Positions 8,292 through 15,412 of a stretch of 64,000 nt of DNA are shown here, piece by piece. Position numbers and translations under genes: made by a program. The DNA lies in NCBI GenBank assembly GCA_030148805.1, contig JASBSS010000018.1, positions 1 to 64,000 of the forward strand, in the 5' to 3' direction. The DNA comes from Thiogranum sp. Lineage in GTDB: Bacteria; Pseudomonadota; Gammaproteobacteria; DSM-19610. The notes beneath the pieces are model-generated. The model ran no database searches and was not told the origin of the DNA. It saw only the letters and a list, made by a program, of their open reading frames with translations. Each line of letters starts with the position of its first letter. The first letter of the stretch is position 1.

Positions 8292-9476
8292 ATGTCACTC
8301 CCCGACTACGGTGGCGGCAGTATCGTCAATCTCATGGCCTCGCTCCAACGGGGCTTGGGCGGAGAAGAGCACGACTATGCGCCCCTGCGCCTGCTGCCGC
8401 CGCCGACCGTCGCCGCCCACCGCCAGGTGGTGTTGTGGATCATCGACGGACTGGGTTTCCATCACCTGTGCCGGCGGCGCGACGCCACCGCCCTGCACCG
8501 CCACTTGCTGGGCGGGATCGATTCGGTCTACCCGCCGACCACCGCCGCGGCGATCACCACTTTTCTTACCGGCGACGCACCGCAGCAACACGGCCTGACC
8601 GGGTGGCATCTGTATTTGCGCGAACTCGGCGCGGTGCTTGCCGTGCTGCCCGGACGTCCCCGCTATGGCGGCGGCACGCTGGCCCAGGCGGGTATCGATC
8701 CGGGCGCGCTGTTCGCCCACCGGCCGTTCGCCGCGCGTATTACTGTCGAGACCTATCACGTGGCGCCCTACAGCATCGCCGATTCGGATTTCAACCGGGC
8801 CCATCTCGGCGGCGCGCGGCTGCGCCGGTATCGGGACCTGGACGGCCTGCTCGCCCGGTGCAGCGAGCTGCTGGAGGACGGCAAACCCAAGTTCGTCTAT
8901 GCCTACTGGCCGGAGCTGGACAGTATCGGCCATCGCGAAGGCATCGACAGCGACGCCGCCCACGCCCATCTGCTGCAACTGGACCGCGCCTTCGCCCGTC
9001 TGGCCGGACAGATCCAGGGGAGCGACACCCTGCTGCTGGTCTGCGCCGATCACGGCCAGATCGACACCACCGCCGCGACGCGCCTGCAATTGCAGGACCA
9101 TCCGCAGCTCGGCGACATGCTCGCGTTGCCGTTGTGCGGCGAGCCGCGCTCGACGTACTGTTATCTGCGTGCCGGCTGTAGCGAGGCGTTCGACGCGTAT
9201 GTTTCGCGGGCATTCGCCGGCAAGGCGCGCAATTTCGACAGCCGCGCACTGCTCGAAGGCGGCTGGTTCGGCCTCGGCGAGCCGCACCCGGAACTGCGCT
9301 GGCGCATCGGCGACCGGGTGTTGCTGTGGCAGGACAATTATTCGTTCAAGGACTGGCTGGCGCAGGAAGAACGTCATGAGCTCGTCGGCGTGCACGGCGG
9401 CCTGAGCGAAGCCGAGCGGCGCGTGCCGCTGCTGCTCAGCAGCGGTCGCGGGGCGCCGGGGACAGCGCCGGGATGA
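8292..9476 (+). CDS. alkaline phosphatase family protein (phosphodiesterase/pyrophosphatase fold)
   Basis: 394-residue hydrolase of the alkaline-phosphatase superfamily. Seen: metal-site start VVLWIIDGLGFHHLC (about residues 47-61), nucleophile region YPPTTAAAITTFLTGDAPQQH with the catalytic Thr, YWPELDSIGHREG and the second metal site VCADHGQID. No signal peptide, so probably cytoplasmic. It lies 41 bases after glgA and may be cotranscribed. Substrate not predictable from sequence; phosphodiester or nucleotide-sugar substrates are possible. Confidence 0.85.
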   Translation: MSLPDYGGGSIVNLMASLQRGLGGEEHDYAPLRLLPPPTVAAHRQVVLWIIDGLGFHHLCRRRDATALHRHLLGGIDSVYPPTTAAAITTFLTGDAPQQHGLTGWHLYLRELGAVLAVLPGRPRYGGGTLAQAGIDPGALFAHRPFAARITVETYHVAPYSIADSDFNRAHLGGARLRRYRDLDGLLARCSELLEDGKPKFVYAYWPELDSIGHREGIDSDAAHAHLLQLDRAFARLAGQIQGSDTLLLVCADHGQIDTTAATRLQLQDHPQLGDMLALPLCGEPRSTYCYLRAGCSEAFDAYVSRAFAGKARNFDSRALLEGGWFGLGEPHPELRWRIGDRVLLWQDNYSFKDWLAQEERHELVGVHGGLSEAERRVPLLLSSGRGAPGTAPG

Positions 9477-9535
9477 CTTTGTGATATTCCCGTGCTTTGC
9501 TTGACGGCACGCGAGCCACCCCAGGAGGTAGCAAC

Positions 9536-10240
9536 GTGACCCGGCGCATTCTGCTGGTGGAAGACAATCAGGAGCTCGCGCAACTGCTGCTGATGCACCT
9601 GCGCGACACCGGCTACACGGTGACCCACGCCGCCGACGGCCAGACGGCGCTGCGCCAGGCCGCCGAGCCGATCGATCTGGTGATCCTCGACCTGATGCTG
9701 CCGGGCATGGACGGCCTGGAGATCTGCCGGCGCCTGCGCGCGCGCCCCGATTATCTGCCCATACTGATGCTCACGGCCAAATCGAGCGAACTCGATCGGG
9801 TGCTGGGACTCGAGGTCGGGGCCGACGACTATGTCACCAAACCCTTCAGCATTCGTGAGCTGCTGGCCCGGGTGCGGGCGCTGTTGCGACGCGCCGAAGC
9901 GATGGGCGAGGTCTCCCGCGAAGCCGACGGTCCGCTGCGGATCGCGGCGCTGAGCATCGACCCGCTGCGACGCCAGGTGCGACTGGATGACCGCGAGGTG
10001 CATCTGACCGGGAGGGAGTTCGACCTGCTGTTGCATTTCGCCCGTCACCCGGGCCGCGTCTACAGCCGTGCCCAGCTGCTGGACCTGGTGTGGGGCTACG
10101 GCCACGACGGGTACGAGCACACGGTGAACTCACACATCAACCGCCTGCGGGCGAAAATCGAGCAACAACCGGCGCAACCGCGCTACATCCTGACCGTGTG
10201 GGGGGTCGGCTATAAATTCGCCGAGGCCGCCGATGGCTGA
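9536..10240 (+). CDS. OmpR-family response regulator
   Basis: 234 residues from a GTG start preceded by AGGAGGT at 9522-9528; an upstream in-frame start would add a tail before the receiver domain. Seen: receiver domain MTRRILLVEDNQELAQLL, phosphoacceptor D52 in LVILDLMLPGMDG, conserved K in YVTKPFSIRELLARV, then a winged-helix domain with LTGREFDLLLHFARHPGRVYS. Overlaps the histidine kinase by 8 bases, giving a cognate pair. Target unknown; the spondin/bufferin genes 130 bp downstream are the nearest candidates. Confidence 0.95.
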   Translation: MTRRILLVEDNQELAQLLLMHLRDTGYTVTHAADGQTALRQAAEPIDLVILDLMLPGMDGLEICRRLRARPDYLPILMLTAKSSELDRVLGLEVGADDYVTKPFSIRELLARVRALLRRAEAMGEVSREADGPLRIAALSIDPLRRQVRLDDREVHLTGREFDLLLHFARHPGRVYSRAQLLDLVWGYGHDGYEHTVNSHINRLRAKIEQQPAQPRYILTVWGVGYKFAEAADG

Positions 10241-11732
10241 GACCGTGTCGCGACGCCGGCCGTTCAACAGTCTCTACGCCCGGCTGGCGCTGGGGGTGGT
10301 GGTGCTGGTGACCGTGCTGGGGGCGCTCTATCTGGGAGTGATGCTGCACGCCGGGCGGCTGTATCTACAGGAACTCAACCAACAACTGAACCAGACCCTG
10401 GCGGCCAATCTGATCGCCGAGAACCGTCTGCGGCTCGACCACGGACAGTTCGACCCGGCGGCACTGGAGCCGATCTTCCACACCTACATGGTGATCAACC
10501 CCAGCATCGAGGTCTATCTGCTGGACACCGACGGGCGCATCCTGGCCTATTCCGCTCCCCCGGGGAAAGTCAAGCGGGAACAGGTGGATCTGATGCCCGT
10601 GCGCAGCTTCCTGCGGGGTACCGCCCGCACCCCCCTGCTGGGGGACGACCCGCGCGAGCCCGGCGCTCGCAAGGTGTTCTCCGCCGCCGCGATCGGCGCT
10701 GCGGCCGCACCTCAGGGCTATCTGTATGTCGTCCTGGCAGGCGAGCAGTGGGCTTCGGTGGCGGCGATGCTGCAAAGCAGCTATATCCTGCGCCTGGCCT
10801 TGTATCTGCTGGGCGCCGCGGCGGTGGCCGGCGTGGTGGCCTCGTTGTGGCTGTTGCGGCGACTCACCCGGCGCCTGCGCCGGCTGGACCGCGCCATGAG
10901 CCGCTTCGAGGCCGGCGGCTTCGCGCAGCTGCCGCCCCTGGACGCTATCGATACCCGCTCGAGCGACGAACTCGGCCGTCTCGGCCATAGCTTCAGCCGT
11001 ATGGCCGAACGCATCAGCGCCCAGATGCACGCGCTCAGGCAAACCGACAGCCTGCGACGCGAACTGGTGGCCAATGTATCGCATGACTTGCGCACCCCGC
11101 TGGCGTCCCTGCAGGGTTATCTGGAAACGCTGCTGATGAAGGCCGACAGCTTGAGCGAGGCGCAACGCCAGGAATATCTGCAGATCGCGCTGGGGCAGAG
11201 CGAACGACTGGGCAAACTGGTGAGCGAGCTGTTCGAGCTGGCGAAACTCGATTCGGGCCACATGGAACTGAACCGCGAACCCTTCGCCCCGGGCGAACTG
11301 GTCCAGGACGTGGTTTTGAAATACCGCCTGCGGGCACGCGCGGAAGGGATCGACCTGGCCGCGGACATCCCGCCGGATCTGCCCTTTGTCAGCGCGGACA
11401 TCGGTCTGATCGAGCGGGTCCTGGAGAACCTGTTGGACAATGCCCTGCGGCACACGCCCGCCGGTGGCCGGGTGGCGGTAGCGCTGGCGGCCCAGACCGG
11501 ACAGGTCAGCGTGCGCGTCACGGATACCGGTTGCGGCATCCCGAGGCACGAGCTGGAACATGTTTTCGATCGCTTTTACCAGATAAAACAGAGCGCTCGC
11601 GGAGCCGGCGGCATCGGCCTGGGCCTGGCCATCGCCAAACGGATCCTCGATCTGCACGCCAGTTCGATCGTCGTCGCCAGTTCGCCCGACAACGGCACGC
11701 GCTTCGATTTCAGTCTTCCGGCCCAGGCCTGA
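10233..11732 (+). CDS. membrane sensor histidine kinase
   Basis: 499-residue kinase. Seen: two membrane helices (about residues 17-38 and 186-207) enclosing a periplasmic sensor of roughly 145 residues, a HAMP linker, the phosphoacceptor H284 in NVSHDLRTPLASLQGY, and HATPase boxes (ENLLDNALRHTP, VTDTGCGIP, GIGLGLAIAKRI). The periplasmic domain has no motif I recognise, so the signal is unknown. Partner of the overlapping response regulator. Confidence 0.95.
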   Translation: MAETVSRRRPFNSLYARLALGVVVLVTVLGALYLGVMLHAGRLYLQELNQQLNQTLAANLIAENRLRLDHGQFDPAALEPIFHTYMVINPSIEVYLLDTDGRILAYSAPPGKVKREQVDLMPVRSFLRGTARTPLLGDDPREPGARKVFSAAAIGAAAAPQGYLYVVLAGEQWASVAAMLQSSYILRLALYLLGAAAVAGVVASLWLLRRLTRRLRRLDRAMSRFEAGGFAQLPPLDAIDTRSSDELGRLGHSFSRMAERISAQMHALRQTDSLRRELVANVSHDLRTPLASLQGYLETLLMKADSLSEAQRQEYLQIALGQSERLGKLVSELFELAKLDSGHMELNREPFAPGELVQDVVLKYRLRARAEGIDLAADIPPDLPFVSADIGLIERVLENLLDNALRHTPAGGRVAVALAAQTGQVSVRVTDTGCGIPRHELEHVFDRFYQIKQSARGAGGIGLGLAIAKRILDLHASSIVVASSPDNGTRFDFSLPAQA

Positions 11733-11860
11733 AAAGATTCGCCGACGTGATAAAAACGTGATCCTTCCGGGACACGTCCGTGAAACCTGAGCGCCATGCT
11801 GGGCGCGGTTTCCACAACCACTGACAACGTTCCGAAAATCTGCCAAAGGGAGAAACGCCG

Positions 11861-12529
11861 ATGTCTACCCGATTCCATTGTCTGCTGGCCGTCGCCGTGC
11901 TGGCGATCGCCAGCACGGCGGTCCGCGCCGCCGACGACCAGCCCCCCCGTTACCAGGTCACCATCACCAATCTGACCGTGGGCCAGAGCTTCACCCCCTT
12001 TCTGCTGACCAGCCACCGCAACGCGCCGGCGCTTCTGTTCGCCCCTGGCGCGCCGGCGAGCGACGCGCTGGCCGCGTTGGCCGAAGGCGGGGACACGGCT
12101 CCCCTGCAGGCTCTGCTCGACGCCGATCCCCGGGTTGGCGCCAGCGTCGCCGGCAACACGCTGCTCGATCCCGGGCAGTCGCTCAGCCTCAGCATCGCCG
12201 CCCGCCCGGGCCGCGACCGTCTCTCGCTGGCGGCCATGCTGATCCCCACCAACGACGCTTTTGTGGCGCTGCAGAACGTGGCCTTGCCGCGCGGGCATCA
12301 CAGCCGCACCCTCTACGCCCCGGCCTATGACGCCGGCAGTGAACCGAACGACGAACTGTGTGTCTCAATACCCGGGCCCGTCTGCCAGGGTGCCGGTGGC
12401 TCACCGGGGGTGAGCGGAGAAGGGTTCGTGCACATCCATTCCGGGATCCACGGCATCGGCGACCTGCTCCCGTCACAGCGTGACTGGCGCAATCCGGTCG
12501 CCCGGATCGTCATCCGGCGCGCCGACTGA
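11861..12529 (+). CDS. secreted spondin-domain protein
   Basis: 222-residue exported protein: signal peptide of about 24 residues (cleavage near VRA/ADD), then a spondin_N-like domain beginning [19 protein letters not shown] and ending [20 protein letters not shown]. Two cysteines in the C-terminal loop ([13 protein letters not shown]) could form a disulfide. A purine-rich GGGAGAAACGCCG precedes the ATG. It sits between a two-component system and the bufferin precursor, all on the plus strand. Function of bacterial spondin-domain proteins is poorly known; extracellular adhesion or binding is a guess. Confidence 0.85.
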
Positions 12530-12602
12530 CCGCTGCTCCGATCGGCGGCCCACCCCGGTGGGTGGCCGATCCATCCTGTTCACCAACAACGAGGACTCAT
12601 GT

Positions 12603-12863
12603 ATGAACACAACACGTAAACTGACCGGCGTTGCGCTGGCCACCGCCGCTGCGGCAATGTTCGCCGCCGCGCCCATGACGGCCAGCGCCGGCTCCAGCGC
12701 CGCGGGCCATTGTGTCGGCGTCAACGCCTGCAAGGGCAAGAGCAGCTGCGCCACCGCCGAGAACCAGTGCAAAGGCCAGAATGCCTGCAAGGGCAAGGGC
12801 TTCGTGGCGGTCGACAAGGCCACCTGCGAGCAACTGGGCGGCAAGTTCGAAGCAGAGAAATAG
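12603..12863 (+). CDS. bufferin-type RiPP metallophore precursor (BufA2-like)
   Basis: 86-residue exported Cys-rich peptide. The signal peptide ends near ASA/GS (residues 29/30). The mature part holds six cysteines (37, 43, 49, 56, 62, 75) and two copies of NACKGK. Followed within 80 bp by an MNIO (DUF692) gene and then a DUF2063 gene, the diagnostic bufferin arrangement. Known of the family: the MNIO enzyme modifies precursor cysteines and the product binds copper or related metals in the periplasm. The exact subfamily (BufA2) is my judgement from Cys spacing. RBS GAGGAC lies just upstream of the ATG. Confidence 0.88.
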
Positions 12864-12940
12864 CGCTTCCAGCGGTCGCTTCATCCATGACCGGCATCCG
12901 TGGCAACGGGTGTCGGTCGATCACCGGCAGGGACGGATTC

Positions 12941-13795
12941 ATGCGCACCACGACGGCGGCCACGAGCAGGCCTTACCTTGGCTACGGGCTGGGGCTGAGA
13001 ACCGAACACTACGAGAGCGTGTTGCGACAGCGCCCCGCCGTGGATTGGTTCGAGATCATCAGCGAAAACTACATGGTCGGCGGCGGCAAGGCGCTGCACT
13101 TTCTGGAGCGCATCCGCGCCGACTACCCGATGGTGATGCACGGGGTGTCGCTGTCGATCGGCGGCAGCGATACGTTGAACGAGGACTATTTGCGCGAACT
13201 CAAGACACTCGCCGCGAGAGTCGAACCCGAATGGATTTCCGATCACCTGTGCTGGACCGGGGTGGAAGGCTACAACATGCATGATCTGCTCCCGCTTCCG
13301 TATACCGAGGAGGCGGTGCGCCACGTCGCCGAACGGGTCTGCCGGGTACAGGATTTTCTCGGCCGCCAGATCCTGCTGGAAAACGTTTCCAGCTACCTGA
13401 GCTACGACTGTTCGCACATGCCGGAGTGGGAGTTTCTCGCCGCCGTGGCCCGGCGGGCCGATTGCCTGATTCTGCTCGACATCAACAACGTGTACGTCAG
13501 CAGCCACAACCATCGCTTCGATCCCCACGACTATCTCAATGCCCTGCCGGCGGAACGGGTACGACAATTTCATCTGGCCGGACACACCCATAGCGGCGAA
13601 ATCATCGTCGACACCCACGACCAGGCTGTCATCGATCCGGTGTGGAAACTCTATGCGAGCGCGGTACGCCGCTTCGGCATGGTCTCGACGATGATCGAAC
13701 GCGACGACAACATCCCTCCCCTGGACGATCTGCTCGCCGAGCTCGAACAGGCGCGCACCATCGCCGCGCCCATCCTCAAATCCCTGGTGGCTTGA
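12941..13795 (+). CDS. bufB: MNIO family (DUF692) bufferin maturase BufB
   Basis: 284-residue TIM-barrel multinuclear non-heme iron oxidase. Candidate metal ligands visible in order: H67 (VMHGVSLS), D101/H102 (WISDHLCW), E147 (LLENVSS), D180 and N182-N183 (LLDINNVY), H211/H215 (FHLAGHTH), D224/H226 and E253 ([10 protein letters not shown]). The start was chosen at the ATG before [15 protein letters not shown]; an in-frame ATG at 12887 has no better RBS. The stop overlaps the bufC start by one base. It should oxidise cysteines of the adjacent Cys-rich precursor; the product chemistry cannot be read from sequence. Confidence 0.93.
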
Positions 13796-14574
13796 TGAGG
13801 CTGCGCGTCCTGCAACGCCAATTCCAGAACGCCTTGCTCGGAGGCGACCGGCAGTTGCTCACGCACGTCGCCCCGACCCCGGGCGCCGACGCCGAGCAGC
13901 GGATCGACATCTATGCCCAGGCTTACCGGCTGCGCTTGCAGGAAGCGCTGGAAGTCGATTTTCCCAAACTGCGCACCCTGTTGGGTACGGACCCGTTTGA
14001 CGAGCTGGCACAGGCCTACATCGAGCGCCACCCGTCGCAGCAGCCGTCGCTGCGCTGGTTCGGGCGGCACATGGCCGCGTTTCTGACCCAGGCCGCCCCC
14101 TGGTCGGCCCAACCCGCACTCGGCGAATTGGCCGCCTTCGAGTGGGCCCAGGGTGAGGTCTTCGACGCTCCCGACGCCGACACGGTGGCCGTGGCCGAAA
14201 TCGCCGAGATCTCGCCCCAGGAGTGGCCGCGGTTGCATTTTCAGCCCCATCCGTCGCTGCGACGCCTCGATCTGTACTGGAACGTCGTCGCCGTCTGGCA
14301 GGCGCTGGACAACGGTGAAGCGCCCCCGCCGCTGCTGGCCGCCACGAAGGCGCAAGCCTGGCTGCTGTGGCGGCGGCAGCTCAGTATCCACTGGCGTTCG
14401 CTCGGCGTCGAGGAATGCTGGGCGCTGGATGCCTGGCGCCGGGGGGCGAGCTTCGGCGAGATCTGCGAGGGACTGTGCGAGTGGGTGGCGCCCGAACAGG
14501 TCCCCGTACACGCGGCCAGTTTGCTCAAATCCTGGGTCGATGCCCGCCTGATCAGCGTGCTCGTCGGCGGTTGA
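13795..14574 (+). CDS. bufC: DUF2063 protein, bufferin maturation partner BufC
   Basis: 259 residues. The N-terminal DUF2063 domain is visible as RIDIYAQAYRLRLQEALEVD then FPKLRTLLG. The family is annotated as putative DNA-binding but acts as the partner of MNIO enzymes in RiPP pathways, probably presenting the precursor. The ATG overlaps the bufB stop (TGATG), so the two are translationally coupled. Residues 95-259 form an alpha-helical second half with no motif I know. No DoxX-type bufD gene follows. Confidence 0.9.
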   Translation: MRLRVLQRQFQNALLGGDRQLLTHVAPTPGADAEQRIDIYAQAYRLRLQEALEVDFPKLRTLLGTDPFDELAQAYIERHPSQQPSLRWFGRHMAAFLTQAAPWSAQPALGELAAFEWAQGEVFDAPDADTVAVAEIAEISPQEWPRLHFQPHPSLRRLDLYWNVVAVWQALDNGEAPPPLLAATKAQAWLLWRRQLSIHWRSLGVEECWALDAWRRGASFGEICEGLCEWVAPEQVPVHAASLLKSWVDARLISVLVGG

Positions 14575-14713
14575 TCCGGTAGCGGCGGCGCTCGCGTCCC
14601 CGGGCCCCGGTGGGGCGCGCCGCGGCACCCCCCGGCGCCACAGCGCCCGTCTGGTTTCGCGGCCGCCTGGGCGTGTACACTGGCGCGAGTCAATAACCCT
14701 CCAGGTGCAATCC

Positions 14714-15412
14714 ATGAAGCCGCTGATCCTCGCAACCCTGTTGGGCGCCGGCGCGGCCAACGCCGCCGGCGACTGCGCGCGCACCGACCGCGAGCTCTAT
14801 GTCAATGGCTGGCCGGAAGTCCGCACCCACGAACGCATGGGTGCCGTCACCCCCGGGGCACAGATCGAATGCAAATTCTTTCCCGACCAGCAGCAACGCG
14901 AAAATCTGCTCGCGCGTTACGAACGCGGCGACCTGGACGGCGTGAATTACCGGCTGAGCTACGCCGATGGCGGCGCGCTGGTCCAGGGCCGCCGCGCCAG
15001 CCGCTGGGATCCCGCCGACGCTCACAACTGGCGCCTCAATTGCAGCACCGATGAGCAGGCCACGTATCACTGTGTATTGCGCAAAGGCCTTTTGCGCCTG
15101 GAGCAGGACGCCGCGGGCCGACGACGACTGACGGTCGGCGACCATCACCGCCCCGGCTCGGAAGTCTTACTGCGCGTGGACAGCCACATGGGGATCACGG
15201 CGTTGGCGGCCAGCGGATTTTCACCGACGCAGATCGAACGGCTGCTCGGACAGATGCGCGCCGGCACCAAACTGAATGTCGGCTATCATCGCAGCGACTT
15301 GCAAAACGCGAGTGAAGACACCCTCAGCCTCTACGGCTTTGAACCGGCGTTGGCGCTCATGCAGGAGGTGCTGCGCCAGCTGAACGCCACCGCTCAACCT
15401 CGCGGGGATTGA
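14714..15412 (+). CDS. secreted protein of unknown function
   Basis: 232 residues with signal peptide MKPLILATLLGAGAANAAG. The mature part has paired cysteines (DCARTD, IECKFF, LNCSTDE, YHCVLR) suggesting disulfides. The C-terminal part (LLRVDSHMGITALAASGFSP followed by QIERLLGQMRAG) vaguely resembles the IalB-type fold, but I would not assign it. ATG chosen over an in-frame GTG 9 bases upstream because AGGTG at 14703-14707 is well placed. It follows bufC after 139 bp on the same strand with a possible -10-like TACACT just upstream, so it may be separately transcribed. Confidence 0.75.
   Translation: MKPLILATLLGAGAANAAGDCARTDRELYVNGWPEVRTHERMGAVTPGAQIECKFFPDQQQRENLLARYERGDLDGVNYRLSYADGGALVQGRRASRWDPADAHNWRLNCSTDEQATYHCVLRKGLLRLEQDAAGRRRLTVGDHHRPGSEVLLRVDSHMGITALAASGFSPTQIERLLGQMRAGTKLNVGYHRSDLQNASEDTLSLYGFEPALALMQEVLRQLNATAQPRGD

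Follow-up and report, generated by a model that had tools for sequence, protein, structure and literature searches.

A gene for a secreted spondin-domain protein stands directly in front of a bufferin cassette in a marine sulfur-oxidising bacterium, and this arrangement raises the question of whether the two belong together. The locus lies in a window (the whole stretch of DNA that was analysed) of 64,000 nt from Thiogranum sp. (GCA_030148805.1, JASBSS010000018.1, positions 1-64,000, forward strand). An earlier note had described four genes in series on one strand (11861-14574), encoding the spondin, a Cys-rich precursor, an MNIO and a DUF2063 partner, the last two overlapping. It held that the spondin lies outside the usual cassette and could be a co-regulated component of the same metal response. 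The gene series is as described, and the overlap amounts to one base shared by bufB and bufC (TGATG). The boundaries drawn for the unit do not hold, because a regulator pair and a repeat array directly upstream were missed.

Organization of the locus

The unit is larger than first described, and its first two genes encode a regulator of the OmpR type and a sensor kinase. Its features are the following.

9470-9495, + strand: partial array GGGA-N7-GTGA-N7-GTGC, possible autoregulation site (by sequence; similar in L119 and L120)
9536-10240, + strand: OmpR/PhoB-type response regulator (RR), GTG start after AGGAGG (Pfam Response_reg and Trans_reg_C)
10233-11732, + strand: membrane histidine kinase (HK) with periplasmic sensor domain (Pfam HAMP, HisKA and HATPase_c)
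11745-11784, + strand: four-unit 11-bp direct-repeat array, proposed regulator binding site (shuffle test, cross-phylum conservation)
11795-11800, + strand: -10-like hexamer CATGCT, 11 nt past the last GTGA (offset recurs at other array loci)
11861-12529, + strand: exported spondin-domain protein, C2-like fold, 222 aa (NF038123; fold match)
12603-12863, + strand: bufA2, Buf2 bufferin precursor, 86 aa, signal peptide, six Cys (NF050166)
12941-13795, + strand: bufB, MNIO maturase (NF050167, PF05114)
13795-14574, + strand: bufC, DUF2063 partner (PF09836)
14714-15412, + strand: exported protein (ORF5), not assigned to the system (kept after bufC, in Thiogranum only)

The RR and HK genes directly precede the spondin gene on the same strand, and the array lies in the 128-bp gap between kinase and spondin. 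The order RR-HK-spondin-bufA2-bufB-bufC-ORF5 is kept in two other Thiogranum MAGs, with spondin identities of 76-84%, and is therefore more than chance. Orthologues of bufC follow bufB in L119, L120 and L386. In scans that count as weak evidence, a terminator-like hairpin appears at 14634, 3' of bufC and ahead of 14714-15412, and no promoter-like or terminator-like site was found in the 73-bp gap between spondin and bufA2. The exported protein at 14714-15412 (+), which follows bufC in three Thiogranum genomes only (L119 and L120 included), has no Pfam or NCBIfam family above cut-off.

The bufferin and spondin proteins

The cassette adds a member to a known family, and the identity proposed for it was correct. 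It is of the Buf2 kind, with all three products above the cut-offs of their models: the 86-aa precursor scores 86.8 bits against the BufA2 model NF050166 (cut-off 60), BufB scores 397 bits against NF050167 (cut-off 310) and 384 bits against Pfam PF05114, and the bufC product scores 84.4 bits against DUF2063 (PF09836, cut-off 27.2). A comparison of the DUF2063 protein with PDB sequences gave no match. The precursor starts with a signal-like segment, judged by eye, and has six Cys in its exported part, three of them within Cys-Lys-Gly motifs. Asp in place of Phe at the FonB-Phe250 site is reported to mark Cys-Lys-type (Buf2) maturases (Gadgil et al., PMC13097082). The window BufB has Asp at this site, as in the Cys-Lys class: it reads Asp255-Asp256 (ERD-D256-N), where the genome's two HvfB-type MNIO copies have Asp-Phe in the alignment. 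These two genes lie outside the window (G000:C17:27530-28312 and G000:C5:105843-106610), and no GTGA pair or array was found in the 1.5 kb upstream of them.

The window cassette thus resembles Buf2 clusters in its family models, its gene order and the Asp at the Cys-Lys specificity position. Unlike those clusters, it lies behind a spondin gene and a two-component system (TCS) with a putative operator array, and a DoxX gene was not seen among the genes adjoining it.

The spondin scores 155.6 bits against NCBIfam NF038123 (cut-off 40) and 20.2 bits against Pfam Spond_N, below the cut-off of 24; a search of the genome with the Spond_N profile gave no match, domain scores being below that model's threshold. 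The protein has an N-terminal signal-like segment and conserved Cys167/Cys175 and His residues. Its predicted fold matches the mindin F-spondin domain (3d34; Z 18.3, 173 residues aligned) and F-spondin (3q13; Z 16.1), and the next match has Z 6.4. Mean pLDDT of this prediction is 77.8, and a strongly conserved C-terminal loop region is of low confidence. Although the F-spondin fold appears to be common to these proteins, the window spondin has 18% identity over the aligned part, is a single domain made for bacterial export, and lacks thrombospondin repeats. No link between bacterial spondins and bufferins/DUF692, copper, SigF-NrsF or MsrP was found in open-licence papers.

Spondin neighbourhoods across genomes

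If the spondin itself took part in bufferin function, for instance as a carrier, an anchor or a second substrate of BufB/BufC, the two should be found together elsewhere. The earlier note had suggested a genome search for their co-occurrence. We used the window spondin to scan a single genome from each species and obtained 80 named loci, of which the two most similar are those of the Thiogranum MAGs with the complete gene order. Adjacency holds in three Thiogranum genomes and fails in nearly all other loci, as befits a gene outside the conserved cassette. Within the fetched flanks the only other case is Candidatus Contendobacter, where an MNIO bufferin cassette lies ~5 kb before the spondin gene. 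Among 369 class genomes, inspection of contig positions found no adjacent spondin-BufA2 pair outside the window's own genome. Other Thiogranum carry bufferin genes elsewhere in the genome. The spondin as a regular bufferin cassette gene was rejected, since nearly all other spondins have no nearby MNIO.

A functional role within the bufferin system is accordingly very improbable. The fixed order spondin-bufA2-bufB-bufC in three genomes, the predicted export of both products and the conserved Cys and His residues of the spondin would suit it, but most spondin genes have no MNIO within ~8 kb, and 43 of 62 spondin genomes have no BufA2, while BufA2 without spondin also occurs. Spondin and BufA2 co-occur in 19 of the 369 class genomes, where 11.3 are expected.

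Kinase and spondin are found together in 46 genomes, against 11.4 expected. Kinase orthologues occur in 68 of 369 class genomes. Genes for MsrP, MsrQ and a TlpA/ResA-like thiol protein recur beside the TCS-linked spondin genes. A second group of nine spondin genes adjoins an ECF sigma factor and NrsF (Pfam PF06532; L148, L154, L165, L173, L177, L183, L188, L190 and L194). None of these nine loci has a GTGA array or a nearby MNIO, which again speaks against the spondin as a bufferin part. The two kinds of regulator are together at no spondin locus. SigF-NrsF was not found beside the window cluster, where the adjoining regulator genes are RR and HK according to Pfam.

A repeat array in front of spondin genes

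The window array reads ACGTGAT-AAAA-ACGTGAT-CCTT-CCGGGAC-ACGT-CCGTGAA, that is, four units with an 11-bp period (nCGTGAn-N4). Its shuffle p-value is 0.005, the floor of the test, and it is the only site in the 3.78-Mb genome without a mismatch to the window-type pattern. Sites in the same genome with up to 2 mismatches were considered as further arrays and set aside, as they had no clear gene context. An element resembling the partial array at 9470-9495 occupies the corresponding position in L119 and L120; a four-unit pattern with 3 mismatches, as here, is near chance level in this window.

Each of 79 testable spondin loci was compared with shuffles of its own upstream sequence; 38 of them have an array at p<0.01, and so do 26 of the 30 loci with an adjacent RR or HK. 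Four TCS-adjacent spondins are thus without a clear array, and some spondin genes have an array though no TCS adjoins. With a stricter gene caller, the counts are 22/26 for TCS-linked and 0/9 for SigF-linked loci (p=1e-5). Of 28 array-bearing spondin loci, 8 have a -10-like hexamer at the window offset, and the next commonest offset has 2. Array-bearing loci span Nitrospirota, Desulfobacterota, Betaproteobacteria and Gammaproteobacteria. By these sequence comparisons, the kinase-regulator pair, the putative operator array and the spondin are a combination conserved across phyla.

The DNA-recognition region of the regulator (GYEHTVNSHINRLRAKIE, at the recognition helix) is nearly invariant in 63 orthologues. 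In the periplasmic domain of the kinase, Met86 is invariant (65/65) and no Cys is conserved; at a guess, Met86 could serve in sensing oxidation or Cu(I).

Arrays before bufA2 genes follow the kinase

Control of the cassette by the same regulator predicts arrays before bufA2 genes that are not linked to spondin. We examined 90 upstream regions of bufA2 in Gammaproteobacteria with a matrix built from spondin arrays only. The four-unit array is not a general mark of bufA2 genes, reaching p<0.01 in only 4 of 89 upstream regions; the signal emerged with two-unit sites and kinase presence. The best matrix sites belong to genomes that possess the kinase, including the spondin-less G009, G142, G247, G334 and G344. 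All four spondin-negative class genomes with the exact pair, and also Thiogranum G009, possess the kinase.

A YGTGA pair with an 11-bp period precedes bufA2 in 12 of 31 places in kinase-positive genomes and in 0 of 59 in kinase-negative genomes (p=5e-7), or 9/15 vs 0/32 by family (p=3.7e-6). These p-values are somewhat optimistic, since the exact-pair form was set after the matrix scores had been seen; the period scan serves as an internal control, and periods 7-10 and 12-16 gave at most 1/31 kinase-positive and 0/59 kinase-negative places. The genomes are partly related, an effect that the family-level count only reduces, and the kinase-negative calls may include assembly gaps. Many of the genomes are draft MAGs. 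The exact pair is absent in 11 of 23 kinase-positive bufA2 genomes. Spondin presence was also tried as a predictor of a bufA2 site (10/27 vs 6/63) and is weaker than kinase presence.

Individual loci illustrate the pattern. G009, a Thiogranum without spondin, has the array TTGTGAC-ACAA-ATGTGAT-CTTT-TCGGGAC-GACC-TTGTGAA directly before bufA2, and its third unit is weak, as in the array before the spondin. In G142, RR-HK are divergent from bufA2-bufB-bufC with a GTGA pair between them. In G257, RR-HK, a perfect array, an EGKCG-type precursor, an MNIO and a DUF2063-like protein are in series (L380:1537-2866 (-)). In the window genome no separate array precedes bufA2, and control of this gene would thus rest on read-through.

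These observations suggest that the spondin gene and the bufferin cassette answer to one envelope two-component system, a reading to which we assign a probability of about 0.7. The co-regulation that the earlier note had proposed is supported by the common TCS and putative operator, also where the genes lie far apart; the spondin may in addition have a role in a metal response. Alternatively, an ancestor of Thiogranum could have acquired the cassette behind a TCS-spondin unit unrelated to it, with the cassette transcribed on its own. Chance neighbours of this kind would account for an adjacency limited to three Thiogranum genomes and for the bufferin genes that other Thiogranum have elsewhere. 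They would not explain why 12 kinase-positive genomes, from 9 families, have the putative operator before an unlinked bufA2 when all 59 kinase-negative places lack it, nor would they explain the G009 array directly before bufA2 or the 73-bp gap without a promoter-like site of the scanned type. We consider this explanation unlikely.

The arrays might also belong to another PhoB-like regulator, of phosphate or general envelope stress, with only an indirect link to the kinase. Direct repeats of 11 bp are a general style of OmpR/PhoB-type sites, and, as noted, some spondin genes have an array with no adjacent TCS. However, arrays directly adjoin RR-HK genes in many genomes and track the presence of this kinase, and the GTGA repeat differs from the pho box unit, CTGTCAT. 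This alternative is very improbable.

Separately, G112 (L115), which lacks the kinase, has a TGTAA repeat of three units with an 11-bp period (TTGTAAGGATCCTGTAAAGATTTTGTAAAG) ~81 bases upstream of the bufA2 reading frame; the repeat perhaps belongs to another OmpR-type regulator.

Other genes behind arrays

In a whole-genome operator search, four-unit sites with at most one mismatch occur in 51 of 77 kinase-positive and 14 of 77 kinase-negative genomes, and most of the matches in the latter look like chance. Sites away from spondin and bufA2 precede genes for a thiol protein with MsrP and MsrQ, an MsrAB fusion and an SBP56 protein. Beside the same RR-HK pair, a perfect GTGA array is followed by a Met-rich, MxKDx-like small protein (L376:2185-2525 (+)), which is below the MxKDx model cut-off and resembles MrpX/BcrX. 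Two small exported families stand directly behind GTGA arrays (L369:2704-3222 (-) and L374:1158-1616 (+); L371:3092-3448 (-) and L381:2439-2846 (+)). Both end in a YF(Q/L)CPLL motif, neither has a Pfam or NCBIfam match, and they are likely further members of the regulon.

Proposed mechanism and signal

In the mechanism that we propose for joint control by the two-component system, the kinase would respond to a signal in the periplasm; copper, oxidants attacking methionine and thiols, or both are the likeliest candidates. The phosphorylated regulator would bind the 11-bp-spaced GTGA repeats across the -35 position, much as at a pho box, and activate transcription of the spondin gene. In Thiogranum, bufA2-bufB-bufC, 73 bp downstream, would be read from the spondin promoter; elsewhere, this regulator would act on spondin and bufA2 genes that lie apart in the genome. 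By analogy with the known family, BufB and BufC would modify Cys residues of BufA2, and the exported BufA2 would chelate copper. The spondin, an exported protein with a C2-like domain, would be produced as part of this response, and the likeliest guesses for its action are envelope protection or metal/calcium-dependent surface binding.

The proposed regulon would bring together MsrPQ, MsrAB, Met-rich peptides and bufferins, and the signal may be combined copper and oxidant damage to the envelope; the array-linked MsrPQ, MsrAB, Met-rich peptide and EGKCG-type precursor point, by analogy, to such stress. Reactive chlorine or methionine-sulfoxide stress could instead be the only signal to the same regulon, with the bufferin as a thiol/oxazole sink. 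This variant would fit the genes for MsrPQ, MsrAB, thiol-redox proteins and a Met-rich MxKDx-type peptide that lie behind arrays or next to spondin, since MsrPQ, MsrAB and Met-rich peptides respond to reactive chlorine. It would also fit the analogy with BcrS-BcrXQP: in Brucella, BcrS is induced by HOCl and has a Met-rich peptide and an Msr system under its control (PMC8315932). Nevertheless, bufferins are reported to raise growth under copper stress (PMC12452194), and E. coli MsrPQ is induced by copper via CusSR as well as by HOCl via HprSR (PMC9302797). We regard a signal without metal as possible but doubtful.

Relation to known regulators

SigF-NrsF regulons of Buf1 or HOCl response (Caulobacter-type SigF, Azospira MrpX/YedY1 and Brucella BcrS-BcrXQP) have the same kinds of targets, namely a bufferin-like RiPP, MsrPQ and a Met-rich peptide, and some spondin genes adjoin SigF-NrsF. 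In our loci, however, a kinase-regulator pair and GTGA repeats stand in place of the sigma/anti-sigma pair. In their survey of MNIO clusters, Antoine et al. report sigma factor and NrsF genes in Buf1 clusters and not in Buf2 clusters, and name no histidine kinase or response regulator; Buf2 is therefore left without a known regulator.

E. coli HprSR and CusSR are OmpR-type systems like the window pair, and each induces MsrPQ, one for HOCl and one for copper. The window regulator is nevertheless far below the curated cut-offs of both the HprR model (165 vs 353) and the heavy-metal regulator model cztR_silR_copR (186 vs 279). Also, the proposed operator in the window is a four-unit direct repeat, whereas the published CusR/HprR box is palindromic.

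As far as the searched literature shows, the kinase-regulator pair is probably new as a Buf2 regulator; we found no published description of it in the open-licence literature, where absence is no proof. If the proposal is true, this pair, with its readable DNA signature, supplies the missing Buf2 regulator, new bufferins and copper/oxidant defence genes could be found by operator rather than by neighbourhood, and bacterial spondin-domain proteins gain a testable function. A broader claim, to which we give slightly better than even odds, is that a widespread GTGA-array two-component regulon in Gammaproteobacteria and some other phyla joins Buf2/EGKCG-type copper peptides, spondins and methionine-sulfoxide repair, that it replaces SigF-NrsF, and that it gives bacterial spondins a first physiological setting, in envelope copper/reactive-chlorine stress.

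One further observation concerns BufA2 architecture. A MerC-like membrane domain is fused to a BufA2 domain at L101:9903-10625 (-) and in L264, L262, L266, L269 and L273, and these fusions resemble those described for mercury clusters.
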